Assembly: GCA_004565275.1 (NCBI GenBank)
Contig: SDOX01000159.1
Location: 65,002 to 129,001 of the forward strand
From: Nannochloropsis salina CCMP1776
Lineage: Eukaryota; Sar; Eustigmatophyceae; Eustigmatales; Monodopsidaceae
Reading direction: 5' to 3'
DNA length: 64,000 bases
The notes under the pieces are model-generated. The model was not told the DNA's origin. It was given only the letters and a program-made list of their open reading frames with translations, and made no database searches. This document shows positions 23,249 through 60,200 of the stretch, one piece after another. The position numbers and the translations under genes were made by a program. Within the stretch, counting starts at the first letter, position 1. Each line of letters opens with the position of its first letter.

Positions 23249-24604
23249 ATGGCACCAAGCAGCAACTTGCGGCGGCCTTGCCATGTGATATGTCGAGAAG
23301 AGAGTGAAGGGAGGGAAAGCAATGAAGACACTCAGCCTTCGCGCAACAGCTCTATGAGCTCGAGTTCCCGTCATGCCCCCGATGACAGTGCTCTACATGT
23401 TAAAAACCCTTTCAGCGGGCAAATAGGTACGAGATGCGAGGGCGGCAGATCATGGTTCTCGATGTTTGCCGCCGCCTGCCTCGTCCTTTTGGTTTTTGAT
23501 CGGGCGCCAGGGGCTGAAGCTGTCAACCGGGGCCTTCGAAAGCGGCGCTCTCAGACACCGCCAGAGCCGCCAACTTCAAATGCAACGACAGCTATGGATG
23601 CGGCTCTCACAGTCAAGCTGCCGGCGGTACCTCCGTTCAAAGTGGGACGCATTTCTGTTCCCCACTCGGACCTGACACTCTCTCGCATCGCCTACGGCTC
23701 TTTGCACTTCCCTGAATTTAAGGACAACGTGACGGGCCTGACTGCGGCCTTGGAGGCCTGCCAAAAAGTTGGCGTGACCACCATAGACCTGGCGGACGTG
23801 TATGGTTGGATTGAGGACGGACACGGCGCTGCTAACGATATATTTGCTGAGGCGCTCAAGGCCAGCCCAGGTCTGCGCTCTAAGCTGGAGCTTGTAACCA
23901 AATTTGGAATCCGTCTTAGCGGAGGATACCACATCGACCTCTCTCCCGAGTGGATCCACGAATCTTTGGACCGGTACCTCACGCTCTTTGACACGGACTA
24001 TGTGGACGTGCTCATGATCCACAACCCCGACCCGAACATGGACGTGCAGGCCGTCGCCCAGGCCTTCAAGGAGATCAAGGAGGCTCGCAAGGCCCGAGCC
24101 TTCGGGATCTCCAACTTCCACCAGTGGGAGTACGAAGCGCTGCGAGACGCCATGGCGGCGGAGGGTCTGAAGCTCTCGGTGCACGAAATGGAGACCTCCG
24201 TGCTCCACCCCGACCGCATCACCGACGACACCGTCTCGTACTTCTCAACGGGCGAGAACGAGCTTCGGATCCTGGGATGGGGCGCGCTGGGCGGCGATCC
24301 CTACGGGGGCTCGAACTTGTTGTTCGGGTCAGAGGGAGAGCGCGAGAAGCGCATCGTGGAGACCCTGGCGCTGAAGGGGCAGGAGCTGGCTCTGGAGGAG
24401 GATGCGGGCCTTGGGAAGAAGCAAACCGTGACCTTCGGGCCCGACGAGGTAGCGGTGGCCTGGCTGCTGCACCACCCGGGAAACATCGTGCCCATCATCG
24501 GCACGACGGCCGTGGCGCGCCTGATGGCGCAGACCACCCCCGCCGAGAAAATCCCCTTCAGGGATTTGGACTTCGACGACATCATGAGCGCCCTCCACTA
24601 CTAG
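23249..24604 (+). CDS. Aldo/keto reductase 2 (YdhF-like), membrane-anchored or secreted
   Basis: An intronless aldo/keto reductase of 451 residues with the full tetrad: Asp180 and Tyr185 in DLADVYGW, Lys218 in VTKFGI and His257 in MIHNPDP. It ends with EVAVAWLLHHPGNIVPIIGT, the phosphate-binding end of the barrel. It shares with the gene at 969-2114 the motif GWGALGGDPYGG (WGPLGGDPLAG there), the ASPGLRSK/LQPGLRER segment and the late AWLLxHP block, so the two are paralogs. Unlike its paralog it has about 67 polar residues before a hydrophobic segment (about 69-83, MFAAACLVLLVF). It may therefore be a signal-anchored membrane protein. An internal ATG at 23462 just before the hydrophobic segment could instead give a plain signal peptide. 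Substrate unknown. Confidence 0.87.
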   Translation: MAPSSNLRRPCHVICREESEGRESNEDTQPSRNSSMSSSSRHAPDDSALHVKNPFSGQIGTRCEGGRSWFSMFAAACLVLLVFDRAPGAEAVNRGLRKRRSQTPPEPPTSNATTAMDAALTVKLPAVPPFKVGRISVPHSDLTLSRIAYGSLHFPEFKDNVTGLTAALEACQKVGVTTIDLADVYGWIEDGHGAANDIFAEALKASPGLRSKLELVTKFGIRLSGGYHIDLSPEWIHESLDRYLTLFDTDYVDVLMIHNPDPNMDVQAVAQAFKEIKEARKARAFGISNFHQWEYEALRDAMAAEGLKLSVHEMETSVLHPDRITDDTVSYFSTGENELRILGWGALGGDPYGGSNLLFGSEGEREKRIVETLALKGQELALEEDAGLGKKQTVTFGPDEVAVAWLLHHPGNIVPIIGTTAVARLMAQTTPAEKIPFRDLDFDDIMSALHY

Positions 24605-35931: not shown

Positions 35932-37574
35932 ATGAACGGGCACGCCAATGGCAACGGCAGCACCCACGGGGGACCTTCGTCCTCCTCGACCTCGACAGGC
36001 GCTGTGGGTACATTTCGCGTGAAAGCTGGCCTGGCGCAAATGCTCAAGGGCGGCGTCATTATGGGTATGTGACAGGGTGGGGCACGAGGTGGTGAAATGC
36101 GTGTCATTGAAATGGGGCAACTGGTTGGGTGATGTGGCCTCTACTGCAAGTGCGTGTCTCTGTGTGAGGCCAACTTGATTCGTTTTACGAGCCTGTCATC
36201 GCTTGGCGGGAGCTCTATTTTGTGGATGGCTTCAAGGAGTGAAGGCTAGCAGAAGTTTGCAGGCGTTGCTTTACAAAATAGTCTTCCTCCTGAGCCCGGG
36301 CGAGGAACAAAGCACCCATCCCTCCCGTCCCCGTCACTGCTTCTCTTGCCTTCAGTCCTGACATTGTTGTACTCATTTTTGGAACTTAGACGTGGTGGAT
36401 GTGGAGCAGGCAAAGATCGCAGAGGCTGCTGGTGCAGTGGCAGTGATGGCGCTTGAGCGCATCCCTGCCGATATCCGTCGTGACGGGGGCGTGGCGCGTA
36501 TGAGCGACCCGGCCATGATCAAGGAGATCAAGGCGGCGGTGACCATCCCAGTGATGGCTAAGGTGAGCCAGAAGTTGCGAGGAGAAGGCTGCAAGGAAGG
36601 TAGAAGTGACCGGCACATCTGGCTGTAGAAGTGAACGAGAAGTAATCAAGGCAAGAGGGCCGTGAGGAAAGATTGATGAACCATAAGCAGATAGGGACAT
36701 CAGAGCGCAATCTTTTTGTGCACATGCTGATTTCATCTACTTTTACGACTGAGCCTGAGAAATACATGACGTTTCAGTCCTCATGACAGTAAGGGCCATG
36801 ACTAACCGCTCGGTCGCTCCGTGTCTTTCCTCGTAGGCCCGCATCGGACATTTTGTAGAGGCCCAAATTCTGGAGACGATCGAGGTAGATTACATCGATG
36901 AGTCCGAGGTTCTGACCATGGCGGACGAGGACAACCACATCAACAAGAACAAGTTCAAAGTGCCCTTCGTATGCGGGTGCCGGGATTTGGGGGAGGCCCT
37001 CCGGCGTGTGGCCGAGGGGGCGGCGATGCTCCGCACCAAGGGAGAAGCGGGAACGGGGAATGTGGTGGAGGCGGTGCGGCACGCGCGCACCGTGCAACGG
37101 GAGATCAGGCGCTTGAAGACAATGGATGAGGACGAACTGTTCGTGTACGCCAAGGACATCAGGGCACCGCTGGAGCTCGTGCAAGAGGTGGCACGCACTG
37201 GGAAGCTTCCAGTCGTGAATTTCGCGGCCGGCGGGGTAGCCACGCCGGCGGATGCAGCGTTGATGATGCAGTTGGGTCTGGACGGTGTGTTTGTGGGATC
37301 AGGGATCTTTAAATCGACCGAGCCGGAGAAGCGCGCCCGGGCCATTGTTCAGGCGGTGACGCACTTCCGAAACCCGCAGGTGTTGGCAGAGGTTAGCACG
37401 AAATTGGGTGTACCCATGGTGGGCATATCGGACATCAAGGGGGACCCAGTGAACTTCCGGGACCGCGAGGGGGGTGTCGCAGGTGACGGCGTTCCCCCCA
37501 AGAAGCAGCTCCACGGTGCCACGGAGACCCAGCTGTACGGATCGAGCTGGAATGTGGGGCATCAGCACCGTTAG
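35932..37574 (+). CDS. PDX1: Pyridoxal 5'-phosphate synthase subunit PDX1
   Basis: The synthase subunit of the DXP-independent vitamin B6 pathway, making pyridoxal 5'-phosphate from ribose 5-phosphate, glyceraldehyde 3-phosphate and ammonia supplied by PDX2. 347 residues from three exons: 35932-36064, 36390-36562 and 36837-37574. The first 25 residues are Gly/Ser/Thr-rich. Then come [20 protein letters not shown] with Asp45, [27 protein letters not shown] with Lys102 (the Schiff-base Lys), [34 protein letters not shown], the second Lys170 in RTKGEAGTG, and [20 protein letters not shown] with GVFVGSGIF. Both introns fall inside conserved blocks and preserve phase. The C-terminus is longer than in bacteria and rich in charged and polar residues. 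No PDX2 gene is in the window. Confidence 0.96.
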
Positions 37575-38898
37575 AAAGGGAGGACGGGGAGAGTTACCGG
37601 TATGAGGTCGCGACTATCGCGTCCGAGCGCCTTGTCTGTTGAAACGTCCGAAGGCGTTATGACGTGAGAATGAAAACGATGCTATTCGAGACACACGGTT
37701 GGGGCAGGTGGGTGAAATGTAGGTGGACAAATGGCTTGGGTGTGAGGGTGGGAAGGACTTCAAGGAATTAACGCAAGTGAGCGGGTGGTGTAGCGGAGAG
37801 AGATCTTGCAGTTCCAGCATCATGTCAGAGCTCCACGGACGAGGACGCTCACGGCTGTATCTTTCATGCCGCACCGCGTTCCCATATATGTTAAGGAACT
37901 GGATGGTTAGTAGAGCAAAGTAGGGAACGTGAAAAAATTTAACAATGTCATCATACCCAAGGCTGAAGTATGTAGGTTAAAAGTCTGGAATGGCCCGTGC
38001 ATTCTTGTGTCCATGTCTCTGCTTAAGTATGATGACAGACGCAATGAAGATGACGAAAGGGGCCTGCCTGCGTACGAAGTGACCTTTACTTTCACTTATT
38101 TTTCAATTCTTTATTTACATCGTTTCACGATAAGTAGAATGATTGTCACATCGTTTGCATCGGCGACATCGACATTGCAACAAGGCGCATTCCGTGTAAA
38201 CCAGCGTTTTGATACTTTGCGACCCCAGAGGGCACGAATGAAACGAATGCGAAAAAGACATGAGATCGCCACGTCCGTAGTGTCAATACACATCACTCCA
38301 ACACGGACATAACATCGATAAAATGGACCCGGAGTCACACGTGATCAGGTGGATCGTCCAAGCTCAATTCCGCCCACATCGACCCAACCCGTGTTCCATG
38401 GACACGCTGAACGGAAAGTGAGGGGTTGCAGTGCGGTTTCTTCCCCGCTTCGAAGCTCGAGAAGCAGGCGCGTCACGCCCGATCCACTCTCGCAAGGAAG
38501 CATCTGCGCATGGCGCTCCTTGACCTACCTACTGCTTCCCTCCACTCGAAATAGTAGACAAGTCTGTCAGGGTCCCGACCGTGTCCTCTGTGCCAAGCCA
38601 GAGTCCTTCGAAAGAGCGGACGCCCAAGGCGAATCCTGGACCCATTTCCAGCGATGCGTTTGAATCCCAGCCCTGGCGCTCATGTTGGGTGGTACACCGC
38701 ATAAAACACCCGCACATCTCCGTTCGCTTGAATGAAATCCTTACGCAACTCCCTCAAAATCACAGTACTTGCACCTACGGACAAACATCGCTGCATTTTT
38801 CGCCACAGAGAAAGCAAAGCGCGCCACAACGTCCCCAAGAGGTCCTGCCCGCCGTGGAAGGCTCGATAGCTGGAGCGGGGCACCACAGCCTTGCTAGT
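37575..38898. other. Intergenic between PDX1 and La-motif gene
   Basis: About 1.3 kb. The frame of the downstream La-motif gene is already open from 38581 but has no ATG before 38899, so this part is probably 5' untranslated. Short open frames around 37929-38312 lack family features. Confidence 0.45.
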
Positions 38899-41800
38899 AT
38901 GCTTCAGAGAAGCCAGGTGATGGCTAACTACCAAATTCCTATTTCACTGGCATGTCTGTTTCTTCTATGGAGAGCCTCTGCAGCGAAAGCAAGACATGCG
39001 GGGGGCAATGAGAAAGTCGAGAGCTATCGGAAGGCCGGAGGAAATGGGGTCGAGGCGCCCCCTGCCCCCTCCGCATCCCCGATGGGTCTGCAACCTGTTG
39101 TGGACAGTGACGCAGCGTATAGAGTGCGGAAAGCACGCTACGATAAGGCGCATGGTCTTCTAGAATTGTATTTGGAGCAGGAGAACATGCTGGAAGCGGA
39201 CGCGATAAGGGAGGCCCTGGAGCTTCTGGAAGGCAATATGTCGGAGTGGGGAGCCCTGGAGGAAACTTTGGGGCATGGGTATCTACACGATGACGATTTC
39301 ATGCTGATGATCCGAGCACATGTCATTCGAGGCCAAATGTTGGCTGTCGCGGCGCGGTATGAGAGGCAGGGAGGGGAGCTCGCAAAGCTCAGTAGCCGAG
39401 GTAGCGGGAGGGACCCTCCCATGGTTCGAGCGCTTGAAGAGTTCGAATACGCCTGTCCGATGCTTTGGAAGGTACAATTGATGTCTGCGGCAGGTTCGTC
39501 GAGAGGAGAAAATTCTAATTTGACAGCCCTGGGTTCGGACCCCTTCTTCTTCTCCGCCATGCCCTCCTCCTGGGGGCCGCCGCCAGGATCAGGGCCTGCG
39601 GGCGGCAGCCTTGGCGCCCCGGAGGATGACTACCACTCCTGCTACGCTGTCCTGGCCGACCTCTATTCGGAGCTGCAGCTACATCAGCAGCAGCATGAGC
39701 GACAGAGGAAGGGCAAAGGCGCCGACTTGATGGCGCGGTACATGGTCGTGCGGCGGCAGGAGGAGGATCGGGAGAGGTCGGACGCAGGCGGGGAAGCCCA
39801 GCAACTGAATGAGCAGGGTCTAAAGCTTCGGAGGCGTACATGGGGAATGGTGGACCGTCTGGCCCTCTTGTCCACCTCCTGTCCTGCAGACGTCGTCGCC
39901 GCCTCGGGAAGCGAGAGCGACAGCCCCTACCCGAAAACCCATATCATCTGGAACGAGGCGCAGGTCATGCGGGCCCACATGCTGGGTATTGTCTGGCAGC
40001 TGTCTGCAGTCACAGAGCCATGGAATGCTCAGGCTTGTGTGGAACGCGCGAAGATCTGGCTGGGCATGATTAGGCAGCGGTCCCAGGCGCGGATGGCCTA
40101 CTACCTGCACCACAGGCAGGCGGCGGGGGGTGGAGCCGACAAGGGGCAGGGGCCACGGCTGGGGGGGAAGGTGAGAGAGATGCAAGCAGCGGCGGCGGCG
40201 ACGGTAGTGTCGGAGGGTCTGCAAGAGGAGGGAAATTGCTACTTGGGCGCGCTGACGGCCGTGGCGGAGAAGGGGTGGGAGGCCTTGGAGGTGGAGCGTG
40301 GGGAGGAGGGGAGATTGTGCGGGTTGCCGGGGGGAAGGAGGAAGGACGTGGTCTTGCCTGGCTTCCAATCCGGGGAGGAGATCTTGGAGGCTGTGAGAGA
40401 GTCCTACCAGCACGCGCTCTTGGCCCCCCGCCTCTCTCTGCGTGACTTCTTCGCCAAGAGAGGGGCCTTGAAGAGCAGGCCCTTAGGCTCTTCCTCGGCG
40501 GGCCCCGCTCCATTTCCCAGCTCCGCCTCGTCTTCTTCTCCCTCACCGACGTTCTCCTCCTCCAGCCCTCCGATCTCTCCGCCCCACTACACCTCCCTTG
40601 TCGGCCAGCAGACGGCGGGGGAGAAAGTGTCGCCCTTCGTCCTGGCCTCCTTGCTCGCTTTGCTCTGCCTACTCGGAGGAGGCTTTTACCACTACAGCCG
40701 CAGGCACTCTCATTCTCGCGGCGGGCGCCACAAGAAGAAGTCAGCCGTACTAGCAGCGGCTGTTGTCAAGCGTGGCGCACAGCGGAAGGTCCAGGCTGGG
40801 CAAGCGACCGGCAAGTGGTGCGCAGACGAGGGCCGGGGAGCCTGTCAGCAAGCGCGGTGGACCCTCTGGGAGCACGTAGCTTTCTGTCTCGAGACGGCGA
40901 CTTCCCTGTCACGCCCGTTCGTCGGCTCGCTCACGCGGCGCGCGAGCAAAATGTACTCAATCTGGCGTGTATGGGCGAGGAGGAGGCACCAAGGCACGGG
41001 AAGGTCGAAAGGACAACCCGAGTCGAATAAGGCCAAGGCGCAAATGCTGTCGCCGACACCAAAAGAACATTCTACCAAGAAAATCAAAGGAGAATATAGC
41101 AAACCAGGGACTCGCGATGGCAGCGGTGGCCGCCGTCGAAGGTGTTCTGGCAAGAGATGCGAACTTCAGCTTGTGCAGAAGCCGCCACAATGCGGGCACG
41201 AGAAACAGCAACCAGCGGCGCAGGCATTCGTCTCTACACCACCCGTCTTTCCTTCGCCAAGGTCTAGGCAAGGGATAGCAGGGCAAGAGCAGCGAATGGT
41301 ATCGGTGACGCCTGGGTTTGTGGAGGGGTCTGTTGTGGGCGACGCGTTCGAGTGGGTGGGGACGGGCGGGTCGCACTGTCCCAAGTCGAAGGCATCTACG
41401 CTCTCCAGATGGAACGCATCGTCTGAAAGGCTTACAGGTGAATCGGAAGCACCCAGGCCAGACATATACGATACCGAGAAAAAGCAGGGACAGGAGCCAC
41501 ATCTACCCACAGCCTCATGCTACCAGGCGGGCAACAAAAGAAAGGCTGGCGCGACGGCAAAGCTGCCATGTTTTCCACGTTCAAGAGCCGAAAAGGTGGA
41601 AGGAAAAAAAGAGAAAAGTGAAAATATTAAATCGACTGAGGCCAAAAGCAAGGGCCTGGAGGAGTCTGCGATGTCCCTGGACTCAGCCGACGCGCAGGAG
41701 GGCAAGGGGCCGGAGTCTGTAAGCGAGGGGCCAGGGGCGTCGAGAAAGGAAGAGGGCGGTGTGCCAACGGTGGCTGTGGGCAATCCGCAGCCAGAGGAGT

Positions 41801-43407
41801 GTCGACATTGGACACAGGACCAATATCCGCTTGAGCAAGAAGCCGAGGAGGGAGTGAGTGAGAAGTCAACGACCGTCGAAGTCAGCCGGAGCGATACTAC
41901 GGGCCCCAAGCGTTCGCGTCTCTCAACGTCAAATTCGACTTGTTCGAGCCAGTCTCCGGCCGCAGTGTCCCACCCCGTCATAGAGCAACCATTGCATGCG
42001 GCTTGCAACGCTGACAAGGTGATAGAACACCTTACTGAGCCGAGAAAACAGAAGCCGGAAACGGAAGAGAGAAACGAAGGCGTCGTCCAAGATGTCGACC
42101 AGAAGAGCACTTCAATTACACCGGCCACGTTCAAGTCCCGCAACGAGAAGGAAAATGCAAAAAAAGAAAACCCTCGTAGACTAGATTTCGATAAGAAACC
42201 TGCCCCAGAGCCTGCTCAGCTTCAGGATGCGCTCGAAAGTGAGGGTAACTTGAGCTATTCGACCCACACTACCGCTTCCTCCATCTCCTCCTCCTCATCG
42301 TCGCAGTCTCTTAACAGTTTCACTCCGACAAATGCTCAAGCCCGCTCTATTCAATGTAACAACGTCAACTGCTGCATGCATGGCTCCCTTAGCCGCAGCA
42401 CAAGCACCGACAGCAGCACAAGTACAAGTAGTGGTAACGACGCAAGCAATAGGGTCAGCAAGGTGGGAAGGAACGGTGATGCTGCCGGCAATCTCAGCAT
42501 ATCCAACGATAGTAAACGCTTGGATACGGAGAAGATTCAAAACATTTGCGAAACTATTTCCAAAGCCACGAAATACCGTCCTGACGTGCCTCAAAATAAT
42601 AAGACAGGCTCCAAAAGAGTATTCCACAATGGACCCACCGGAGACAAGCCTTTTCATTCTAGCTCTAAAGCAAACGGAAATGGCGCGTACATGGACAGAA
42701 CGCGTGGTCGGATATGCGTGCCCACATTGTACCCCGTCCTGTTCCACCAACTGCAGCGTCGACCCCCTCCCTTGCCCGCGCTCCACGGGCATGGAATAGC
42801 AGTCTCGATTCCCGGCAAAGATTACTACCACGACCCGTGCACTCTACAGCCGATGCCCCCTCTGGGCCGCACCGACCCATATTCTCATCGGCACGGCCAC
42901 GCGGACATGCGAAACTACCCTCCTGCCTACCATCAGCCTTCACCTTACCCTGTGGCGAATTACGAATCGTCTCCTCAAATTGAGCCTTCCGCTACCCGTC
43001 CCGCGCAAGCCGTCGATCGCAAAGAAGTAGAGGACAAGTTGCGCCGTCAGATACATTACTATTTCTCGCCTGAAAACCTGAAGAGAGATTATTACCTTCG
43101 ATCGAAAATGGACGGGCAAGGGTGGGTGATGCTCGCCGAGGTGGCACAGTTCAACCGAACTAAACATTTGCTGGGCCTGCTTGGATTTCAGGGTGAAAAG
43201 GAGGTTAAAGGGGCTCCATTGGACTTTTCACTCCTGCTTAGTATCGTGGCTGAGTCACCTAAAGTAGAGGTGCAGATCATGCCGACGGAAAAAGCAAGCG
43301 GAGACGGGAACGGGGGTAGACTAGTGTATAAGATTCGTCCACGGGAGAACCCGAAACAGTGGGTCGTATCCTCTCAAGAGCGACGAGAATTGTCGGGGAA
43401 AGATTAA
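38899..43407 (+). CDS. Membrane-anchored La-motif (LARP-like) protein
   Basis: An intronless gene for about 1,502 residues. Its order is: a signal peptide (QIPISLACLFLLWRASAAKA, residues about 10-29); a large lumenal region (about 60-515) with charged helices such as KARYDKAHGLLELYLEQENM and no family I know; a Ser/Pro-rich stem (about 528-574); one transmembrane helix (PFVLASLLALLCLLGGGFYH, about 579-599); a basic stop-transfer (HSRGGRHKKK); some 760 disordered Ser/Lys/Glu-rich residues; and a La motif at about 1377-1460. The La motif reads LRRQIHYYFSPENLKRDYYL, RSKMDGQGWVMLAEVAQFNR, then VAESPKVEV. La motifs bind RNA 3' ends or poly(A) in translation control. No RRM is seen after it. The positive-inside rule puts the La motif in the cytosol. 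ATG alternatives are 38899 and 38920. Confidence 0.8.
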   Translation: MLQRSQVMANYQIPISLACLFLLWRASAAKARHAGGNEKVESYRKAGGNGVEAPPAPSASPMGLQPVVDSDAAYRVRKARYDKAHGLLELYLEQENMLEADAIREALELLEGNMSEWGALEETLGHGYLHDDDFMLMIRAHVIRGQMLAVAARYERQGGELAKLSSRGSGRDPPMVRALEEFEYACPMLWKVQLMSAAGSSRGENSNLTALGSDPFFFSAMPSSWGPPPGSGPAGGSLGAPEDDYHSCYAVLADLYSELQLHQQQHERQRKGKGADLMARYMVVRRQEEDRERSDAGGEAQQLNEQGLKLRRRTWGMVDRLALLSTSCPADVVAASGSESDSPYPKTHIIWNEAQVMRAHMLGIVWQLSAVTEPWNAQACVERAKIWLGMIRQRSQARMAYYLHHRQAAGGGADKGQGPRLGGKVREMQAAAAATVVSEGLQEEGNCYLGALTAVAEKGWEALEVERGEEGRLCGLPGGRRKDVVLPGFQSGEEILEAVRESYQHALLAPRLSLRDFFAKRGALKSRPLGSSSAGPAPFPSSASSSSPSPTFSSSSPPISPPHYTSLVGQQTAGEKVSPFVLASLLALLCLLGGGFYHYSRRHSHSRGGRHKKKSAVLAAAVVKRGAQRKVQAGQATGKWCADEGRGACQQARWTLWEHVAFCLETATSLSRPFVGSLTRRASKMYSIWRVWARRRHQGTGRSKGQPESNKAKAQMLSPTPKEHSTKKIKGEYSKPGTRDGSGGRRRRCSGKRCELQLVQKPPQCGHEKQQPAAQAFVSTPPVFPSPRSRQGIAGQEQRMVSVTPGFVEGSVVGDAFEWVGTGGSHCPKSKASTLSRWNASSERLTGESEAPRPDIYDTEKKQGQEPHLPTASCYQAGNKRKAGATAKLPCFPRSRAEKVEGKKEKSENIKSTEAKSKGLEESAMSLDSADAQEGKGPESVSEGPGASRKEEGGVPTVAVGNPQPEECRHWTQDQYPLEQEAEEGVSEKSTTVEVSRSDTTGPKRSRLSTSNSTCSSQSPAAVSHPVIEQPLHAACNADKVIEHLTEPRKQKPETEERNEGVVQDVDQKSTSITPATFKSRNEKENAKKENPRRLDFDKKPAPEPAQLQDALESEGNLSYSTHTTASSISSSSSSQSLNSFTPTNAQARSIQCNNVNCCMHGSLSRSTSTDSSTSTSSGNDASNRVSKVGRNGDAAGNLSISNDSKRLDTEKIQNICETISKATKYRPDVPQNNKTGSKRVFHNGPTGDKPFHSSSKANGNGAYMDRTRGRICVPTLYPVLFHQLQRRPPPLPALHGHGIAVSIPGKDYYHDPCTLQPMPPLGRTDPYSHRHGHADMRNYPPAYHQPSPYPVANYESSPQIEPSATRPAQAVDRKEVEDKLRRQIHYYFSPENLKRDYYLRSKMDGQGWVMLAEVAQFNRTKHLLGLLGFQGEKEVKGAPLDFSLLLSIVAESPKVEVQIMPTEKASGDGNGGRLVYKIRPRENPKQWVVSSQERRELSGKD

Positions 43408-44365
43408 ATACCGGCATACCTGGGTGCTTGAGCATACTGAAAATCGTCATGGTAAGTTATCAGTGCAAGAGTTTGTTCTTGGTTCCTGCTTATGATGGTC
43501 CGCCTTGATTTTGGAGATTGAGTGTAACCTTCGCGGCGCTCTTTATTTATAGTAATTTAGCGAGGGTGTAAAAGCTAGAAGACTGACTTGGGTATGTGAT
43601 AATTGTGTGATACTGCGGTGAAGGGAGCATCCCTAACTGGTCTAGAAATTGAATTGTTCGCCTCAAGCATTCAAGGTGTTTGAGAATCAGCATTCTTTAG
43701 CGAGAAAATATAGAAATGAAAATTGAGCAAGCAAAATGCGTTGAATAGGGGAAGACGTATGTGTGAGAAGAATTTAAAAAATCAAATGAAGGGAAAGCAA
43801 TAGGCGTTACTAGTATTCTACACTTCGTAAAAAATCAAATGAAGGGAAAGCAATAGGCGTTACTAGTATTCTACACTCCTCGTTTTTAGTACTTCAGAAT
43901 ATGAGAGGAGTGGCGGTGTTTTTGGCCACACATAAATATCCAAGAAGGGCTTAGATGCGAGAAAAGGGATCCTAGAGCGGGATTTCAAGCATCGATGCTT
44001 CATTTGCTGCTCGCCACGGAGCGAGAAAAGTATTTGTCGTGGCTTACGTGAGCCCAGCAAACGACAGGCGAGGAAGCAATGATGAGTGCTCCGTTGAGCA
44101 CGTGATATATTTTTTATTTTGTGCCCGTTCATAAAGCTAAGGTTATCTGCGCTTTGTCTAGTAGCCTTCACACACCTCGGCCCGGGAGCATCGCCACGAG
44201 GACTACCGGATCTTCCCTTCCTAGTCAACAAACACACCATTCTCTCACATCGCTAAAATTACTCAGTACTTTGAGCGCCGCCAAGCTTGCAGTCATACTT
44301 TCTCTGGCAGCTCCTCTCTTTCATCGCCTTATATCCCTCGACTGGCCCCTGAAGACATTCAAAGT
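43408..44365. other. Intergenic, convergent 3' ends
   Basis: About 960 bases between the La-motif gene and SEL1L/HRD3. It is AT-rich in the left half and contains a 53-base tandem duplication, listed separately. No gene is recognised. Confidence 0.5.
43775..43877. repeat. 53-base tandem duplication
   Basis: Two adjacent copies with a 53-base period, starting at 43775 and 43828 (each begins TAAAAAATCAAATGAAGGGA). They look identical over about 50 bases, which indicates a recent duplication. Confidence 0.92.
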
Positions 44366-46561
44366 TCAAAGTCCCTCCGCCGCAGAGGATATTTGTCCCT
44401 CCACGTCCAAGATACCCTGTTGCGCCTTCTCGCCATCCTTCCTATCTCCCCCATGTAAGACACTTGCGAGGCCGGACTTCGCTGACAGGCTTGTTACCTT
44501 CCATTGCAGCTTCCCTATGTCCATCATAGAGGACCACGACAGCCTGTTGCCAATTTTTTGGGCCCTCTCGCTCCGTTGACTCCGCGATAGCAAAGCCACC
44601 AGGCGCTTATAGAGGCCTAAAGCCTTCACGGTGTCTTGCGCAAGCACACCCTCCTCGCCCACTTCGTACATCTCGGCAAGCTTCCTCAATGCCTGCACAT
44701 GGCCCATCTCCACTGCCTCCTCCAGGTACCCCATAGCCTGCCGCAGACCCGTGACAGGCCCCGGCACCGCGCTCGTTGATTTACCCTCCTTCTCCATCCT
44801 GAGCATGAGGTTTCCCAGGGCGAAGTAATGGTCGGGGGATTGGAGCGCAGCACGGTCGTAAAAGCGCAGAGCCAGGTCGTCGGCGTCAGGCAAGGCGTAG
44901 CCCATCCGGTGTTCAAGCATGTAGGCCGCGTTCGCCTGAGCGATCTCGTAGCCTTCTTCCGCTGCCATGGCGAGAAAAGTCACGGCATGCTCCATAAGCC
45001 CGGCTTTGTAAAGGTCGATGCCGTACCGCACGCCCGATATCCAGTATCCACTCTCACCCGCGCGCTTGTACGTGGCCGCAGCCGACTCGCAGGACCGGGG
45101 GAAATAAAAGTCATCCACGCCTTCCTCGTAGAGCTGGCCCAGGCGGAACGACGCCAGAATTTGTCCTTGTGCTTCTGCCTGGTGCAATGCTTCCAAGGCC
45201 TCCTCGAAGGCCTCATCCCTCAACAAGAGCTCTCCCCAGTTGAGTAAGGCTTCGGGGTGACCCGCTTGAGCCGCGGTCCGATAGAGCTCCGCCGCTTTGT
45301 CCACATCCCTGTCCACGCCCTTCCCGTGCAAGTACAGGTATGCTAGCGCATTCAGCGCCCCAGGATCGCCGAGAGCACCAGCCTTCTCGAACCAGTCGAT
45401 CGCGGTGTCCAAATCCTCGGCCAGTGATGACTGAGAAGCCGTCTCCCCCCCGTCCCTGTGGGGCCCGCTTGTCGTCGCGTACATCATCCCCAGCTGGGTC
45501 ATTGCTCCCGCGTGTCCATTCTCAGCAGCTGCCAGATAAAAGTCAAAAGCCTGGTCCTCGTCTTCCTCCATCCCGTAAGCCCCGGTTTCGTACATCTTCG
45601 CCACCTCAAACAAGGCCTCCGCGCTCTTTCCGGACGCCGCCTCTTTCAGGAGCTCCGTGCGAATCGCGGAGTCGCTCTTGCCGTTCGCCTTCCGGGACTC
45701 AAGCAGACTGATTAGATGCAGATCTTTGTCCAGCAAGAGGTCCGGATAGTAATTATGCTCCCTCATGGTGATCTCCGCCATTTCCTTGTAGGCCGCCAAG
45801 GCGGCCGAGCAGTTGACTGGAACGCCCGCCCCGAACAAGTGTCGAAAGCCCATGGCTAGATTAGCGCCTATAGACCCGCCTTCAGCCGCAGGTGCCTCGA
45901 AAGTCACTCCTGCTGCATCCTCCGGTGTCTTATTGCCGAAGCCCGTGCTCAAGAAAAATGCTAGGGTATGCTTGGCCTCGCTGAACCCCAATTGTACAGC
46001 CTCGCCCAGCCGTTGCACAGCCTTGGCCAGGTCCCGTTCCACCCCATTCCCACCTGTGGCATAGACCAATGCAGATTCATAAAGTGCGACCGCTTTCTCG
46101 GGCCCTGCCTTTGGCGCGTAGGCGACATCCTCGAAAATCTCCAAGGCCTCTGCGTCGTCCCGCACCCCGCTTCCCGGCCTTCCGTACCTCAATTCCTTCC
46201 CCTTTTCAAGCTGAACCACATAAATAGAATCAGCAGGCAGGGGGGGACGCTCAGCGGCCGGATCGAGGAATTTAGACTGCGCTTTGGCAATGTCATAAAA
46301 GTGGCTGAGGGAGCTTGGTCTCGAGGCCTGAGACTGTTGCTGCTCGCCACGACCATACTCCCCATTACCCATCCCGCCCATACCATGCTTGAAGTCAGAT
46401 TTGGTAGGACTATTCATACTGCGTTGCTGAGCCTTTGATGGCACCATGGCTCCCAGAAGTCCAAAGGCGGCTAAGCAGACAGCTCGAGTCCTGGCCCCTC
46501 TTGATTTAGCGACCCGACAGCGACGTGAGGCAGTACCACGAACACATCGCGTGGGCTCCAT
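44366..46561 (-). CDS. SEL1L/HRD3-like ERAD adaptor with Sel1 repeats
   Basis: An intronless protein of 731 residues built of Sel1-like repeats, matching SEL1L/HRD3, the lumenal adaptor of the HRD1 ubiquitin-ligase complex in ER-associated degradation. An N-terminal hydrophobic segment (RAVCLAAFGLLGAMVPSKA, about 27-45) acts as signal. Repeat hallmarks include ALVYATGGNGVERDLAKAV, MGFRHLFGAGVPVNCSAALA (the SEL1L-specific NCSAAL block), AKMYETGAYGMEEDEDQAFD, LAYLYLHGKGVDRDVDKAAE and KLAEMYEVGEEGVLAQDTVK. The start is the ATG at 46561; only a TTG lies further upstream. I see no C-terminal transmembrane helix, unlike animal SEL1L and yeast Hrd3, so it may be lumenal or anchored through partners. 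Confidence 0.82.
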   Translation of the reverse strand: MEPTRCVRGTASRRCRVAKSRGARTRAVCLAAFGLLGAMVPSKAQQRSMNSPTKSDFKHGMGGMGNGEYGRGEQQQSQASRPSSLSHFYDIAKAQSKFLDPAAERPPLPADSIYVVQLEKGKELRYGRPGSGVRDDAEALEIFEDVAYAPKAGPEKAVALYESALVYATGGNGVERDLAKAVQRLGEAVQLGFSEAKHTLAFFLSTGFGNKTPEDAAGVTFEAPAAEGGSIGANLAMGFRHLFGAGVPVNCSAALAAYKEMAEITMREHNYYPDLLLDKDLHLISLLESRKANGKSDSAIRTELLKEAASGKSAEALFEVAKMYETGAYGMEEDEDQAFDFYLAAAENGHAGAMTQLGMMYATTSGPHRDGGETASQSSLAEDLDTAIDWFEKAGALGDPGALNALAYLYLHGKGVDRDVDKAAELYRTAAQAGHPEALLNWGELLLRDEAFEEALEALHQAEAQGQILASFRLGQLYEEGVDDFYFPRSCESAAATYKRAGESGYWISGVRYGIDLYKAGLMEHAVTFLAMAAEEGYEIAQANAAYMLEHRMGYALPDADDLALRFYDRAALQSPDHYFALGNLMLRMEKEGKSTSAVPGPVTGLRQAMGYLEEAVEMGHVQALRKLAEMYEVGEEGVLAQDTVKALGLYKRLVALLSRSQRSERAQKIGNRLSWSSMMDIGKLQWKVTSLSAKSGLASVLHGGDRKDGEKAQQGILDVEGQISSAAEGL

Positions 46562-47290
46562 CACACGCCACAAAAGTCAAGATGTATCACGCTTAGAGCC
46601 TGCGATGAACGTTGTAAAAAAATAGAACACGTGTCGATTTTGTTTTCTTCGTCTTGAATCTTGGGTCGAGCAAGAAATTCGAGAGAGGCGCTAGCAGGAA
46701 AGGGCCGATGCAGGATAGGGGAGCTACCCTGCTTCCATTTCTGCGAGGCAACTCTACGTATGCCGTCATGGAACCAAGGGCGCCACATAAAAAATTTCAC
46801 CCAAAAGTTCACAATCAGTTGAGCGCAGGTCGGATTGGAAACCATTGGTGAGGGGCCTGAGGACAGTCCGGCTCGCCGGGGTCGGCAAAGAGAGAAAAAG
46901 CGAATGGCCCCGGGGGGAGGCTGGATGGCCCTGGCCGCGCCAATTACAGACACAAAAACCACCGGAAGAGAAACACGAAGGGAGCACACTTACAATGTGG
47001 TCGGAATCCAGGAACGGAAAAAAAAAATGGGCAGCCGATGTAATGAATCTTGGGCGAGAAACAATTTGTCCGACCAAATCTAATGTGACAAAAGTAGTTA
47101 TTTTCGCCCAATTCGGATTCTCCGTGACGACATGGCTATGTCCGTTCCCGTCCTGCATGTCTCGAAGATTCAAGATGTATTGTACGACGACAGGTTCAGT
47201 TTCGTCTCGACGTGAAATATGTGCTACTGCTGCGCTCATATCGATTTCTCGGTGGGGGTAATGCGAAAACATAAAATATACTTTATTTTC
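46562..47290. other. Intergenic between SEL1L/HRD3 and methyltransferase genes
   Basis: 729 bases in a tail-to-head tandem arrangement. Both strands have open frames over 46766-47272, but neither translation looks like a protein family. It is presumably the SEL1L/HRD3 promoter and the methyltransferase 3' region. Confidence 0.45.
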
Positions 47291-48908: not shown

Positions 48909-49801
48909 AATTATGCTCCCACCGTGAGCCCGAGACACGTGGCCGAGGCCCTGTCACCACTCATGCATCAATTTGAGTGCATTTATTAAATGTGGGCGCA
49001 AAAACATCCCGAATCAAGCCACCAAGCCCTCATCTAGGGCGTCTTCAGCCCCCGGGAGCGGCCGGACACGCGAAAAGATACTCGCGGCTCTCCCCTGAGG
49101 CTCCCCGCCACTCACGCACGTGTCTCGCTCAACCAGACGGCCTGCTTGGGGGCGTCCCGGAGCTGTCCCCACGTACTTGCTTGTCGTGAACGTACTCTTG
49201 CTGTCATGTGCAGGACGAGGGGCCGATTTGTGGCGCGACCGGCCAATGTAGTTTTGTCTGACAGGCAATACTGTGCTTAGCCAGCCACACGACCGCGAGG
49301 AGGGAGCCCTCAAGGAGCGCCCACAGGAGAGCCTCTCATGCGGACGCCAGTGTGTCCAGTCGACGGTCAACGTCTCTTGTGTTCACCGAATGCGGTCTCT
49401 AGACACTTGCTGTGCATGTAATTGATGTTCATGGGATTCTTCATTGGTTGTATCGAAGTGTTTGTACGGGAAGGGGTTGCTGTCTAAGCCGCTGTCTCGG
49501 AGCTTCTTCGTGGCCACCTACTAAACATCAACCCCCCCCATTCCCTAAATACCAGTGGATTTCGGCCGCGCCTACCGCGCGCTGGGTAGACAGGCGGCAA
49601 ACAACCACACTCAAGGAAGGAAGTCAGCGCAATTGACGTTAAATGAGTCTATCAGACGAAGCAGAGCTGGCCGACAACCATTGCAGATCGACAGCACAGC
49701 AACTCAGCCAGGCCCAACAGCAACCACATCCTCAGACCAGTGGCATCACTCCCGCGGACAGTTCCTTGGGTTTCAGCAGTAAAAGACAAAGACACAAAGG
49801 A
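48909..49801. promoter_or_regulatory. Divergent upstream region, methyltransferase and sigma factor
   Basis: About 890 bases between divergent genes. An in-frame ATG for the sigma factor at 49643 would lengthen that protein by 53 Gln/Ser-rich residues. No defined element is seen. Confidence 0.4.
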
Positions 49802-51556
49802 ATGAAGAGAATATTAACATTGGGGACCTGCTTTCTCGTGACTTTGGCCTCCTGCGGCAGTGTGTCTTCCTTCGTGGTGCCCAATCATGGCCTTGCAGGG
49901 AGTAGCATTTCCAACGCAAGGCGCACGTCATTACCGAGCAGTATCTACCATCCTCCAAATTTCCGCACCGTCCTGGAACAGCAGAGAATAGGTGAAGCTT
50001 CACCTTTCTTGTTTTCCCTCGCCTCTACGCAGAGCAACAACCCTGTGATCGGCGCCACAAACGATCCTGCTTCCAACACGGGACCCATGTCCGCCGCCGC
50101 CGCCGCCGCAGCGGCAGCAGCAGTCACCGCCGCAGCTACGACTGCTCCAGGCCCCATTTCAGCAATGCCGACCGGAGGTTTGTCCCCCCGGGGCCGACCT
50201 GGCAAGGACGGTGTGCCCCTCAACCCCCCCAATAAGGGGTCAGGCAAAGCCCCTCTGCGCGGCGAGGAGGAGGTAGACTTGGCCCGAAAGATGCAGGTGC
50301 GCGTGGCCTACATTCGCGTCAAATACCTGGCGCGGGAAGCGCTGGGCCGGGACCCGACCCACCGGGAGTGGGCGGACGTGTTGGGCATCTCGGACAGGGC
50401 ACTGGCCGAGGCCTTGACGGCGGCTGCGGATGCGAAGACTACCATGATCCGCGCCAACATGCGCCTGGTCATGTCCATCGTGCGCCGGTATCTCTCGCGC
50501 GGCGTGCAGCTCAAAGACCTGCTGCAGGAGGGCATGAACGGTCTGACCCGGGCCGCCGAGAAGTTCGACCCCGACCGCGGCTTCAAGTTCTCCACCTACG
50601 CGACCTGGTGGATCAAACAGTCCGTCATGCGGGCTGTGGCCGACCAATCCCGGGTCGTGCGCCTCCCCGTGCACGTACATGACCTCCTGAACCAGATCGG
50701 GAGGGCGGAGCGGGAGTTGTCCTCGCAGCTGGGTCGGCAGCCGACGGAGGCAGAGATCGCAGCCAGGGTGGACATCCCGCAGCGGAAATTACAATTTCTG
50801 CGCGAACGGACCCAGCACACTCTTTCCATGGACGCCACCCGGCCTTCAGGCGGGCGGAAGTCGGGTTCTGGGATCGGCGACGAGGTACGTGTCTCCGACA
50901 GCATCTCGGACGCGGAGCCCCTGCAGGACGTGAAGGCGGACGAGGCCTACATGCGAGAGCAGGTGGAGCGCCTCCTCGACTCGCTGAACCCTCGAGAGGC
51001 CGACGTGGTGAAGATGCGCTACGGCCTGGTCGACGGGCAGCAGCGGACCCTGGAGGAGATCGGGGTCGCGTTCAGGGTCACGCGGGAGAGGGTGCGTCAG
51101 ATCGAGGCGCGGGCGCTGCACAAGATCAAACAGCCGTACAGGGTGAACCATCACAAACTCCGAGACAACGGGCGAGGCGGCGGTTCCTCTGCGGGGGGGA
51201 AAGGGATCAGCCAGGGACACAGTGGGAGCCACTTGTCCATCTCGGTCTTCGGAGACTTTGTGGGCGTGGGGGAGAAGGGCGGCGGGCTGCACAGCGGAGG
51301 GGTGCTGGCGGTGGAAGAGAAGGTAGTGCGGGGGAGCGGGGGAGCGAAGCAGACGGCCGTGAGCAAGAACAAGGAGGGCGCCGGATCGAGGGGAAAGTAT
51401 CGCAAGAGGGGTGTGTTGGGCGCTGGGGATGAGGAGGAAGGGCTGTTGGTCGGGGTGGGAGCGCGACGAGGGAGAGGCAGGGGAGTCGGCGCCGCCTCCA
51501 AAATGGTGCCAAGCATGATGTCCTCGCACAACGAGACGCTTGCCGCCTTTCCATAG
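49802..51556 (+). CDS. Plastid RNA polymerase sigma-70 factor
   Basis: A nuclear-encoded sigma factor of 584 residues, intronless, for the bacterial-type plastid RNA polymerase. I start at the ATG at 49802 because MKRILTLGTCFLVTLASCGS, followed by VSSF, forms a signal peptide with the SSF variant of the complex-plastid cleavage motif. The ATG at 49643 is the longer alternative. A poly-Ala tract sits near residue 98. Region 2 is ANMRLVMSIVRRYLSRGVQL to LLQEGMNGL, FKFSTYATWWIKQSVMRAVA (2.3-2.4, about 245-275). Region 3 is AERELSSQLGRQPTEAEIAA. Region 4 is LDSLNPREADVVKMRYGL to TLEEIGVAFRVTRERVRQIE (helix-turn-helix, about 395-440). It ends with a Gly/Arg-rich tail of about 140 residues not found in bacterial sigmas. 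Confidence 0.93.
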   Translation: MKRILTLGTCFLVTLASCGSVSSFVVPNHGLAGSSISNARRTSLPSSIYHPPNFRTVLEQQRIGEASPFLFSLASTQSNNPVIGATNDPASNTGPMSAAAAAAAAAAVTAAATTAPGPISAMPTGGLSPRGRPGKDGVPLNPPNKGSGKAPLRGEEEVDLARKMQVRVAYIRVKYLAREALGRDPTHREWADVLGISDRALAEALTAAADAKTTMIRANMRLVMSIVRRYLSRGVQLKDLLQEGMNGLTRAAEKFDPDRGFKFSTYATWWIKQSVMRAVADQSRVVRLPVHVHDLLNQIGRAERELSSQLGRQPTEAEIAARVDIPQRKLQFLRERTQHTLSMDATRPSGGRKSGSGIGDEVRVSDSISDAEPLQDVKADEAYMREQVERLLDSLNPREADVVKMRYGLVDGQQRTLEEIGVAFRVTRERVRQIEARALHKIKQPYRVNHHKLRDNGRGGGSSAGGKGISQGHSGSHLSISVFGDFVGVGEKGGGLHSGGVLAVEEKVVRGSGGAKQTAVSKNKEGAGSRGKYRKRGVLGAGDEEEGLLVGVGARRGRGRGVGAASKMVPSMMSSHNETLAAFP

Positions 51557-52574: not shown

Positions 52575-55500
52575 ATGCCGTTGACGAGACAGAAGGACCC
52601 TTCTAAAAACTCTCAGTTCTCACCGGTGAACTGCAACATGCACAGTCAACCGAAAGCTTGTGGGAATTCAAGACAACATCTTCCGCACAACAGTATGCCG
52701 GGGCCCAATCAAAAACGCGTATACATGTTTGCCGAAGGGCGCATCGATCAAAAGGAATTGCTGGGCAACAAGGGAGCAAACTTATGTAAGAAAGCAAGCG
52801 GTCGAGTTGGAGGAGGGAGAGTTCGCACAGTCCTGGGTGCATCAAGCTCGAATGTGGTCCTAAAATGACCTAAAATGCCCTTTACACAGGTGAAATGTCC
52901 CGCTTGGGCCTGCCAGTGCCCCCAGGTTTTGTCATTACCACCACTACTTGCCTTGACTTTTTCGAAGCCAAGAAAAAAATGCCGCCAGGGCTCAAGGAGG
53001 AGTACCTCACCGCCCTCGCCCAGGTCGAGAAGCAAGCAGGGAAAATTTTCGGTGATAAGTCAAACCCTCTCCTCCTTTCTGTACGCTCAGGCGCGGCCGT
53101 GTCCATGCCCGGCATGATGGATACGGTGTTGTCGCTGGGCCTGAACGACGAGATCGTGGCGGCGCTGGTGGAGTCGACGGGCAACAAGAAGTGGGCATTC
53201 GACTGCTACCGGCGCTTGATCCAGATGTACCAGAATGTGGTGCTGGGAAAGAGCACAGATCCCTACGAGGAGGTGATCAAGAAGATGAAGGCAGCCAAGG
53301 GCTACAAGTACGACATGCAGATGAGCGGGGAGGACTGGGAGGAGGTGGTGAGACAGTTCAAGGGCCTGGGGGAGGCGCTGCCCACGGACCCGCACGAGCA
53401 GCTCGAGACGGCCATCGCAGCTGTCTTTAACTCCTGGTTCACGCCCCGCGCGGTCCGGTACCGTGAGTACAACAACATCCAGGGCCTGCTGGGGACTGCC
53501 TGCAACGTCCAGACTATGGTAAGGGTGGTGCGCCCGTGGACGACGACTCCCTCCCTCATTCCCGGGCCCACCTCTCGTCTCATGGCCCTCTTCTACATTG
53601 CAGGTGTTTGGGAACAAGTCCGCGGACTCCGGGACCGGCGTGGCCTTCACCCGGAACCCGGCCACGGGCGAGAACGTCTTCTTCGGCGAGTACTTGGAGC
53701 AGGCCCAGGGGGAGGACGTGGTCAGCGGCGTGCGGACGCCGCACTCGTTGGCGTTCCTGCAGCAGCACATGCCAGAGGCCTACCAGGAGCTGGACAAGTA
53801 CCAGCGTTTGCTCGAGACGCATTTCCGTGATATGCAAGGTGAGGGGAACGTGCGATGCGTGGGGGAGGGGAGGAGAGGCGGCCAGGAGGGACACGACGGG
53901 GGGCTGTGGGTGCCCCCGACAAGTTTGCAGGGCGGGAGGAACGGGAGAGACGGCAAGTCGTGAGCCAGTCATGTCCCAACGCGAGGTTCATACATAGCAT
54001 TGCCCCCTCCCACGCGATCCTTCCTCCTCATGGCAGACTTGGAGTTCAGCGTGGAGGATCGGAAGCTGTACATGCTGCAGACCCGCACCGGGAAGCGAAC
54101 GGCCAAGGCTAGCGTGCAGATCGCCGTAGACATGGTCGCGGAGGGGATGATTACCGAACAAGAAGCCCTGCTCCGGATCGACCCCGAGCGAATGAACTAC
54201 TTCCTGCACCCCACCGTGGACACCAAGGCCCCCAAAACCGTCCTGGGCAAGGGGTTGCCAGCCTCCCCGGGCGCTGCCACGGGCGCGGTCGTCTTCTCCC
54301 CCGAAGTGGCCGAGACCATGGTCAAGGGCGATCCGAACGTGAAGCTCATCCTGGTCCGGACGGAGACGACGGCCGATGACATTCATGGGATGCGCGCCGC
54401 CACTGGAATTGTGACCGAAAACGGGGGCATGACGAGGTGAGGGGAAAATGGAAAAGCGCCACCTTTTCCCATGTCATCCGAAAGCTTCGGTGTGTCAAAT
54501 CTTTTGCATAATTTCCTCCTTAACGTCACGGATTTCTTTCTCGCCACCCAACGTAGCCATGCGGCCGTGGTGGCTCGGGGCATGGGCAAATGCTGCGTTG
54601 CCGGCGCCCACACGCTGCACGTGGATGTGGAGGGGAAGCAATTCATCACCAAAGACGGAACCGTGATCAAAGAGGGCGACGTGATCACCCTAGACGGGGC
54701 CTCGGGGCTGGTCCTGCTCGGAGACGTGCCCCGCATGCCCCCGGGGGCGGACGCCTGTTTCCAGACCCTCATGGGCTGGGCACACAAACACAGCCGACTG
54801 GCGGTAGCGGCCAACGCGGACAGTCCTGAGGACGCGCGCGTTGCTCTCTCCTACGGTGCCACAGGCATCGGTCTATGCCGGACGGAGCACATGTTTTTCC
54901 CGCCCGAACGCATCGACATCATGCGAGAGATGATCCTGGCGGAGACGGAAAAAGAGCGCCAGAAGGCCTTGGACCGCTTGTTCGCGTTTCAAAAAGCAGA
55001 CATGCGGGCCATGTTCGAAGTGATGACGGGAAAGCATGTAACCATCCGCCTCCTGGACCCGCCCCTACACGAGTTTTTGCCCACCAATCACCATGACGCG
55101 GAGGCCCTGGCAGCGCGCATCGGCAAGCCGGTGGAAACGGTGCTTCGGGAAATTTCTGAGTTGAAAGAGGCCAACCCAATGCTGGGCTTTCGGGGATGTC
55201 GCTTGACCATCAAGTTCCCCGAGATCACGCTGATGCAGGTCCGGGCAATCATCATGGCCGCAGTCGAGGCACAAGCCGGGGGGGCGATGGTGCACCCCGA
55301 AATCATGATTCCTCTGGTCGCAACCAGCACGGAGCTGGAGGTGATCGTCCCCTTGGTGGAAGCGGAGATCCGAAAGATCTTTGCGGAGTCGGGAGGTATT
55401 ACGGTGCCGTATCGGCTGGGCACCATGGTGGAGGTCCCACGGGCCTGCCTGACAGCGGAGAAGATCGCGCCTTTTGTCTCCTTTATCTCTTTCGGAACAA

Positions 55501-57271: not shown

Positions 57272-60200
57272 ATGATGGAACCCGAGAAAACCGAAAGCTG
57301 CGCTTCTCTACAAAGCGTTTCACCTAGCACGGTGCTCATTGACTCTGCCCGACCCTCGTCCACCTCAAAAGGAACCCGACCCGCCGATCCGCCGATTGAG
57401 GGGCTTCCGGCAACCACCACTCGAGGAAAGGGGAAAACATCGTCAAAATCACGACGAAACATTGATGTGGAGCGGGGTCGCTTGCGTTCTCGGTCGAATT
57501 CTAGGTCTCCTCCTCCGCCACCTAGCAGCAATGGGAGCGACAGAAGCGACAGGAGTCAACGCAGTGTGAGGAGCGACAGGAGTCAACGCAGTGAGAGGAG
57601 TGAAAGGAGCGCTCGGGGCGAGAGAAGGGATAGGAAAGATCGAGCTGACCGCAGGGAACGAAGCAGTCGAAGCGACAGGGGGGACAAAAAAGGTCGACGG
57701 GATAGGGAAGGGCAGGATCATTTGTATTACGGCGACTCGCATCAGACAGCATCGATGCGAAGTTCGGGTAGCGAGCGAAGCGCCAAAAGCACCAACAGCA
57801 TCGTCAGTGCTAGCAGTTCGCGGCCTCTTCAAGACAGCAACACCCTTCGCAGTCATCATCAAGACAACCTCGGCCGAACAGAAAGGCATCGAAGCAGGAG
57901 TTCAAGCCATACCCGGCGCACCGGCAGCATGGGGCAAGAGGAGTGGACTGCGCGTGTCAGCATGGACACCGTACCCCCTCGCCGCAGCTTGGTACGGAGC
58001 TGGCTACAGACAGCTTGGGCTTCTCGTCAGTGTCGGCGAGGATTCGGGCTTTTCGTGGCCGGCTTGCTTCTGATGGCGCTTGCTGGCGTCGTGGACATTG
58101 AGGGAAACGCGTACAGGCATGCCAAGATCCGAGAGGCTATAGTAGTAGACGCACCGAACCATCCAGAATTCAAGGCATGGGCGACAGGCGCCCAGCAAAA
58201 AACACCCCTCTTCTATACGTACCACCTGTACAACATCACGAATCCGGAGGAGTTCCTGGCGGGGCAACCTCCCCAAGTGCACGAGGTCGGCCCCTTCAGC
58301 TTTCAGCAAAGGACCAAAAAAATCAACGTAACCTTTTCGGACGAAGGCCGTCTGGTCTCATACATCACGCAGATACAGCACGAATTCACAGGGGACCCAG
58401 AAGAGTTAGACCGGCAGTCCGTCTATTCGCTCAACTTACCGTACTCGGTCGCGATCTACACGGCAGGAAGCGAGAGCAACTTGCTGAAAATCGGTTCTCA
58501 ACAGGGTTTGGCAGAAGTCTTATTCCAAATGAAAACATATTTTCTTCCCGCTCTGAAGGAAAACGCTGTGGTCATGGCTATACAGATGGCTGTGGACGCC
58601 ATGACCCAAATCCTCAATGCCATGCAAGCGCCGTCCGAGGCGACAGCCACCAGATGGGGCGGGGGCTGTACAAGCAACATGTTTGGAAAGATTTGCGGCT
58701 TCTCTGCGGTTGCAACTTTTTTCTCGGCTGTCGATAAGCGCAACAAGATGGACTTGAACCTGCTGCAGCTTTGCATCAACACCAAGCTGACAGAGGCCGA
58801 GCAGATACCCCTGGCGACGGTCCGCCGGCTATGGGACCCAACCGACGTGTATTCCATCATGAATGTGGACAGAGGGAGCGCCTCAGAGCGGTACGGTATA
58901 TCGTACTGGTTGTGGGGCGACGTGGACGTGCGGGACACTATCGCCATGCATTTTGGGATCACCATCCGACAATACAACGCGTTGCGGGCGTACTTGCTGG
59001 ATATATATCGAAGCCCCATGCTCGAAATGGCTGTGGTCAAGATATTCTTGGAGAGTCTACCTCCAGAAGATGCGGGTACGGCGGAGGTGGCGCAATGGAG
59101 TGATTTCTTGTGGCGGCAATGGGCAGTGGGGGACGTGGTCACACGTCTTAAGAACGAGTCAATGGCAAGGCCGGAGAGCATGCAGCCGGAGCTTCCCCCC
59201 GAATTCGCCTGGTACGCGGAGAAGGCAGGGTACAAGACCTTTACCTATGGCGGCAAACGGCTTAACCATACCCAGGCCAAGTGCACTTTTGACCTGGCTA
59301 AACGGCCCATGGTCTACTTCCAGACCTATGTCTTGGGCCTCTCAGGTCCAAGCGTCAGCCGTCCCACGTTTGTAGATTTTGGATTGGAGGACTCGGGCGA
59401 GCCCCTTATTGATCCCCGGGATTGCTTCCAATCAAAGAACGACTGGGCCCTCTTGCAGGGCTATTTAGCCTACCTGGCTGAATACTTCGTCGCCCCCCTG
59501 CTGCAGGAGGACGTGCTGGATAAGAACGGGGGGCTAGTTACGCGCAAGACTTTGCGAGAATGCCTGTACGGGTACTCCGCGCCCATTTTACAGCTAAGTC
59601 TGGCTAAGGATGACCCTCGGGCCATGAAATTCAGCCTGCTCGCCAACGATCCCAGCCTGGACGGCCCGGGCCGCTGTCTCTCCTCCAACGACGTGGAAAA
59701 CCCGTTCACGGCTTGCCGCTTTTCCTCGCGAAACATCACTCAGAATATGGACGGGAGCGAGCAAGTGGCTCGCATCTTCGACAAAGTGCCCAACACGTAT
59801 CACACGGGTCGGGACGATACCGTGCGCGCCGGAGCCTTCTACACGTACCGTGGCGACCGAAGCATTGCTGACATTTGGCCTGGCGGCTCTATTCCCTTTG
59901 CTGGAGGAACGAAAGATTTGCCCGGATCCATTCAGTACGGTTACTCCGATGGTATGCAGTTTCCTCCCTTTGGCGCCATCGACGGACCAAACGTGGTGCT
60001 CTCAGTCTTCGTACCAGGCTTTGTCCTGCCCCTGCGGTTCGCGTTCTCGGAGGACGTAGACGTGCAAGGCGTCAAATTGAAGCGCTTTCGCCTAGTGCCC
60101 GAGACTTTTAGCAGCTCTCGAAGCGACGCCAAGACCTTTGGGATGGACAAGGTGCAACAAGAAGGACTTTTCAACCTGACGGGCCTCATGACCGGCCTGA

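Follow-up and report, generated by a model that had tools for sequence, protein, structure and literature searches.

A putative single-pass membrane protein of Nannochloropsis salina carrying a C-terminal LARP1-type La motif

Overall, after analyzing a 64,000-nucleotide stretch of the Nannochloropsis salina CCMP1776 genome (hereafter, the window), we found one long open reading frame with hydrophobic segments and a C-terminal La motif that carries RNA contact residues. We propose that it encodes a type I single-pass endomembrane protein whose cytosolic LARP1-type La motif tethers poly(A) mRNA, and we give this proposal about an even chance of being right. In this putative mechanism, a signal peptide would send residues 30-576 into the lumen, and the helix at residues 577-599 would stop the transfer. 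About 900 residues would be left in the cytosol, ending in the LARP1-type La motif, and the endomembrane in question would most likely be the ER. The La motif would bind the 3′ ends of poly(A) tails and thereby tether mRNAs to the membrane surface; alternatively, mRNPs might be tethered through the long flexible tail. The proposal presupposes a single transcript, and the architecture is drawn from one genome stretch. Its features are as follows.

38899..43407, + strand: open reading frame (ORF) of 1,502 aa, starting at the first in-frame ATG after 38524, where the stop-to-stop frame begins
38899..38985, + strand: signal-peptide-like N-terminus, residues 1-29, with h-region ISLACLFLLW and candidate cleavage site RASA|AKA
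39109..40443, + strand: predicted lumenal region, residues 71-515, probably helical, of no known family
40444..40626, + strand: Ser/Pro-rich stem, residues 516-576, with weak coding signal; pyrimidine-rich, splice acceptor possible (exon start 40609/40612)
40627..40695, + strand: predicted transmembrane (TM) helix, residues 577-599, from hydropathy and shuffles
40699..40740, + strand: basic stop-transfer RRHSHSRGGRHKKK, residues 601-614, after the TM helix
40741..43008, + strand: long hydrophobic-poor tail, residues 615-1370
43027..43170, + strand: La motif core, LARP1-like, residues 1377-1424, from Pfam and PDB sequence matches
43330..43362, + strand: KIRPRENPKQW, residues 1478-1488, resembling KVRRREEPEKW, with which the La motif of LARP1 ends (1.1 bits, weak alone)

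The uninterrupted frame described in an earlier, sequence-only reading of this DNA was recovered exactly (38899-43407, +); a second ATG lies at 38920 (Met8, context GTGATGG). No stop was observed in the 1,502 codons, compared with 56 expected from base composition, and the remaining five frames across the ORF contain 34, 56, 29, 45 and 43 stops. Therefore, the ORF is coding as a whole. Codon scores, trained on 11 stretches of the window with 7,038 codons in total and compared for nine segments in six frames each, were highest in frame +0 in seven of the nine. The strongest coding signal in the ORF was at 39109-40446 (0.27, z 8.6), and frame +0 was also the best of six at 38899-39108 (0.13, z 2.5), over the TM helix and the sequence after it at 40627-40959 (0.08, z 2.0), at 41320-41859 (0.19, z 3.7) and in the La region (0.19, z 4.6). 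At 41860-42978, it scored 0.00 against -0.15 or lower elsewhere (z 3.0, best of six), and at 40960-41319 (residues 688-807) it was the best of six, but hardly (0.01, z 0.3). Frame +0 was not the best in the Ser/Pro stem, where it scored 0.00 and an antisense frame 0.35, or upstream of the ATG, where it scored -0.04 and antisense 0.02. Frame +2 is likewise stop-free over the stem, the TM helix and the following stretch (171 codons). Two antisense open frames inside the gene, 40070-40765 (-) and 41520-42215 (-), of 231 codons each, are probably composition effects.

The weak point of the single-protein reading is continuity at the RNA level, because the coding signal is poor in the stem and in part of the tail and because plausible candidates for in-frame introns are present. 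Splicing or two overlapping transcripts might yield two products instead of one: a protein with the signal peptide and TM helix, and a soluble protein resembling LARP1/Slf1 whose translation begins at an ATG within the tail. We consider such a gene-model artefact unlikely, though a serious contender, given the weak coding signal in the stem and at residues 688-807 and the character of local introns. Three introns were placed in the window through two conserved genes, PDX1 (SOR/SNZ family) and PPDK (Pfam matches), and are listed with the best candidate in the ORF.

36563-36836: PDX1 intron, 274 nt, donor form GTRAGC
53839-54036: PPDK intron 1, 198 nt
54437-54556: PPDK intron 2, 120 nt
40171..40611, + strand: possible in-frame intron, AAG|GTGAGA ... 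CAG; this candidate would remove residues 425-571 and keep the TM helix

Two of the three placed introns are divisible by three, each with a single in-frame stop, and one of those has a GC content of 0.66. Because such introns would leave a frame nearly open, an open frame is no proof against introns here. Additionally, six GTRAG donor-like sites lie within the ORF (40171, 40393, 41719, 41854, 41858 and 42239), of which AAG|GTGAGA at 40171 is the best. The donors at 40171, 40393, 41854 and 42239 were paired with YAG acceptors that have at least 13 of 20 pyrimidines and lie within 700 nt. In-frame pairs from 40171 or 40393 to 40609 or 40612 would take away some of the lumenal region as well as stem sequence, and pairs from 41854 to 42226 or 42307 would shorten the tail. 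However, the in-frame candidates near the stem leave the TM helix in frame with the La motif, and the 1.1 kb of 41860-42978 is open in that same frame, both of which argue against a split into two proteins. So does a scan for introns across the TM helix, in which GTRAG or AG|GT donors before it were combined with YAG acceptors after it at 60-900 nt: five pairs had at least 12 of 20 pyrimidines, one of them at least 13 of 20, and all five are 3n+2 long and would therefore put the La motif in a different frame. Although splicing may make the protein shorter, no candidate intron drops the TM helix yet leaves a fused product.

The C-terminal La motif proposed earlier was borne out by Pfam, in which La (PF05383) matched residues 1381-1424 of the whole protein with E=3.7e-14 and 52.8 bits (cut-off 37.1), spanning profile positions 1-46 of 59; the C-terminal fragment alone scored 57.2 bits. 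With PF05383 above its curated cut-off, the protein falls within the La-motif superfamily. A PDB sequence search with the C-terminal 142 residues returned a LARP1 fragment (1.2e-10) and full-length LARP1 (4.4e-10), next Schizosaccharomyces pombe SPAC1527.03 (3.9e-9), and further 2cqk (8.5e-6), La (4.7e-5), LARP4 (7.1e-5) and LARP6 (1.6e-3). The 2cqk entry was deposited as C-Mpl binding protein, which we take to be LARP4B. Judged by match ranking rather than by a tree, the La motif is of LARP1 type, LARP1 being the closest among La-motif proteins with solved structures.

Kozlov et al. (2022, PMC9458460) single out Q333, Y336 and F348 of LARP1 as the residues that matter most for poly(A) and assign the grip on the RNA 3′ end to N342 and D346. 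Four of these five named contacts, Q333, Y336, N342 and D346, are identical here as Q1384, Y1387, N1393 and D1397, and the fifth, F348, is conservatively replaced by Y1399. The position of LARP1 His368, which is described as stacking on RNA in one structure (PMC11259064), is occupied by N1419. No RRM was matched by Pfam at E up to 1 in the whole protein or up to 10 in the C-terminal fragment. The U1A entries in the PDB search (E=0.08) align over the La core and not after it, and we rejected them as a sign of an RRM. Therefore, the protein has a La motif alone and no La module; what the sequence-only reading had termed a La-motif module is retained as a motif and abandoned as a module. A lone La motif is enough in LARP1, because LARP1 itself is described as having no RRM (PMC9458460). 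Human LARP1 (PDB 7soo) thus resembles the present protein in its La core fragment (45% identical), its poly(A) contacts and its lack of an RRM. It differs in its C-terminal DM15 region (PMC4652764), whereas the present protein ends 78 residues past its La core, is longer than LARP1 by about 31 residues between the core and the motif end, and has an added signal peptide and TM helix. The longer spacing and the N1419 substitution count against our proposal. The protein was not assigned to LARP1 proper, as La was its sole Pfam match below E=0.1, provided that Pfam holds DM15.

The N-terminus agreed with the earlier suggestion of a signal peptide and is signal-peptide-like by hydropathy: a hydrophobic core at about residues 13-24 is followed by RASA|AKA, the first acidic residue is E38, and a 12-residue window as hydrophobic was found within the first 40 residues in 7 of 1000 shuffles (a count separate from that for the TM helix). 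One predicted TM helix with a basic stop-transfer was likewise recovered. The TM core VSPFVLASLLALLCLLGGG (577-595) is the most hydrophobic 19-residue window of the protein, with a mean Kyte-Doolittle value of 2.08 that was reached in 10 of 1000 whole-protein shuffles. The N-terminus at 13-31 ranks second (1.37), and a stretch of the N-terminal region at 134-152, which includes two arginines, ranks third (1.29). Membrane helices can be oriented by the positive-inside rule, and because the basic RRHSHSRGGRHKKK trails the helix, the C-terminus is predicted to be cytosolic. The net charge across residues 601-780 is +30, and the Ser/Pro stem and long tail were found as described before. Hydropathy and shuffle counts agree on a putative type I single-pass layout. 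A signal peptide, a single TM helix and a cytosolic La motif together form the natural reading of this frame.

N-terminal hydrophobic stretches were also observed elsewhere in the window. The products of 969-2114 (-), an aldo/keto reductase (Pfam E=2.9e-34), and 23252-24604 (+) each have one; they are 35% identical over 294 aligned positions, are encoded about 21 kb apart and are paralogues. A CD36-family protein at 57272-60847 (+) (E=1.9e-47) carries a long basic Ser/Arg-rich N-terminal extension ahead of its first hydrophobic stretch.

Alternatively, the N-terminus of the La-motif protein might be a plastid or mitochondrial targeting signal, with a different topology, and the absence of acidic residues from its first 37 positions would fit such a signal. 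In algae with secondary plastids, a plastid-type cleavage site has an aromatic residue at +1. The window contains an example in a sigma-70 factor with regions 2-4 (49643-51556, +), whose ATG at 49802 starts a signal-peptide-like hydrophobic stretch ending in SVSS|F, as would be expected of a nuclear-encoded plastid protein. In contrast, RASA|AKA has no aromatic residue at +1, so we prefer the secretory route over the plastid. Additionally, it is hard to see what a La motif would do in the mitochondrial intermembrane space. We therefore give organellar targeting little chance.

The predicted lumenal region is less clear. The sequence-only reading had proposed a large folded-looking N-terminal region (60-515), which our data did not confirm as one folded domain. 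For residues 27-538, Pfam gave nothing significant, a match to SLATT_5 (E=0.053, 13.3 bits against a cut-off of 29.5) being dismissed, and a PDB sequence search gave nothing significant either (best E=2.8). AlphaFold2 on the single sequence produced helices only; its models, built without relatives, had a mean pLDDT of 41 in the N-terminal region and 59 in the La region and are too poor for fold claims, so the region may only loosely be called helical in nature. An internal repeat was not detected in it, since 88 and 251 of 300 shuffles reached the two scores. The N-terminal part has glycosylation sequons at N113 and N207.

The neighbouring gene, convergent with the La-motif gene at 44366-46561 (-), encodes a Sel1-repeat protein of 731 aa (Pfam Sel1 E=1e-24) with a hydrophobic N-terminal stretch, which we assume may be a secretory-pathway Sel1L/Hrd3-like protein. 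A relationship of the N-terminal region to Sel1/TPR repeats was rejected, as 28 of 300 shuffles reached its score against this neighbour and BLASTP gave E=0.73. After the La-motif gene, an intergenic perfect tandem duplication occupies 43775-43877 (period 53, 1.9 copies), and RNA families had no match in 36000-46600.

The lumenal domain had been suggested to sense or bind something, for which we found no support in a region without a recognisable relative. Thus, in the earlier proposal of an RNA-binding domain on the cytosolic face of an endomembrane, the frame as it most naturally reads and the LARP1-type contacts favor the placement, and the lumenal role is unsupported. Lumenal sensing is allowed by the layout and is speculation. 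As a long shot, the protein might be an mRNA receptor at the ER or another endomembrane: its 440-residue lumenal domain would sense a ligand or stress, and the grip and protection that the cytosolic LARP1-type La motif gives to mRNA tails would shift in response, so that conditions in the lumen bear on what becomes of poly(A) mRNAs. Ire1, a transmembrane ER-stress sensor whose cytosolic side is described as recruiting an mRNA (PMC4279078), is an analogy only, since no kinase or RNase family was found in the Pfam search here. Regulated intramembrane proteolysis, which would shed the lumenal part and free the cytosolic tail with its La motif to act elsewhere, the nucleus included, appears very improbable. 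A type I layout, a Ser/Pro stem and a long, initially basic tail fit such substrates generally, but nothing speaks positively for this route.

Among La-motif proteins, S. pombe SPAC1527.03 (PDB 9cb2) has a La core 50% identical to the present one. LARP1 is a soluble protein, and we know of no membrane anchor for SPAC1527.03 or for yeast Slf1 and Sro9. Slf1 and Sro9 are described as LARPs with a La motif and no known RRM that associate with mRNA and polysomes (PMC4287443). Their La motif is central, whereas it is C-terminal here, and in Slf1 a distinct N-terminal region contributes alongside the La motif (PMC4287443). Since translating ribosomes and poly(A)-binding protein are among the partners of Slf1 and Sro9 (PMC4287443), the same membrane protein might mainly hold ribosomes or PABP-bound mRNPs and serve local translation at the membrane instead of gripping poly(A) ends. 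However, ribosome binding by Slf1 was assigned to its N-terminus (PMC4287443), and the present protein had no match to one simple PAM2-like pattern, which represents a single form of this motif of the PABP binders LARP1 and LARP4. We regard this variant as improbable.

For tethering by the La motif, which we prefer, p180/RRBP1 provides a precedent as an mRNA receptor, with no homology claimed. This protein crosses the ER membrane once and, from its cytosolic side, promotes the anchoring of mRNA there; it differs in that its lumenal part is very short and that a lysine-rich region, which is likely non-specific for RNA, stands in place of a La motif (PMC3362647). Searches of viral and prokaryotic contig collections with the whole protein and with a La-motif alignment, and of viral contigs with the N-terminal region, yielded no confirmed relative and none with the same domain order. 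As the collections consist of viruses and prokaryotes, these searches say nothing about algae. Among the matches listed in our literature searches, which had partial coverage, no membrane-spanning LARP was found.

How the ER retains mRNAs independently of ribosomes is an unsettled question. A membrane-spanning La-motif protein would do so in an unusual manner, and in a new one if the frame is expressed as one transcript. If our proposal is true, the La motif in a transmembrane protein would equip an mRNA receptor for a defined RNA target, namely the 3′ poly(A) end; its lumenal part could report on the compartment. The LARPs would then extend from soluble to integral membrane proteins.
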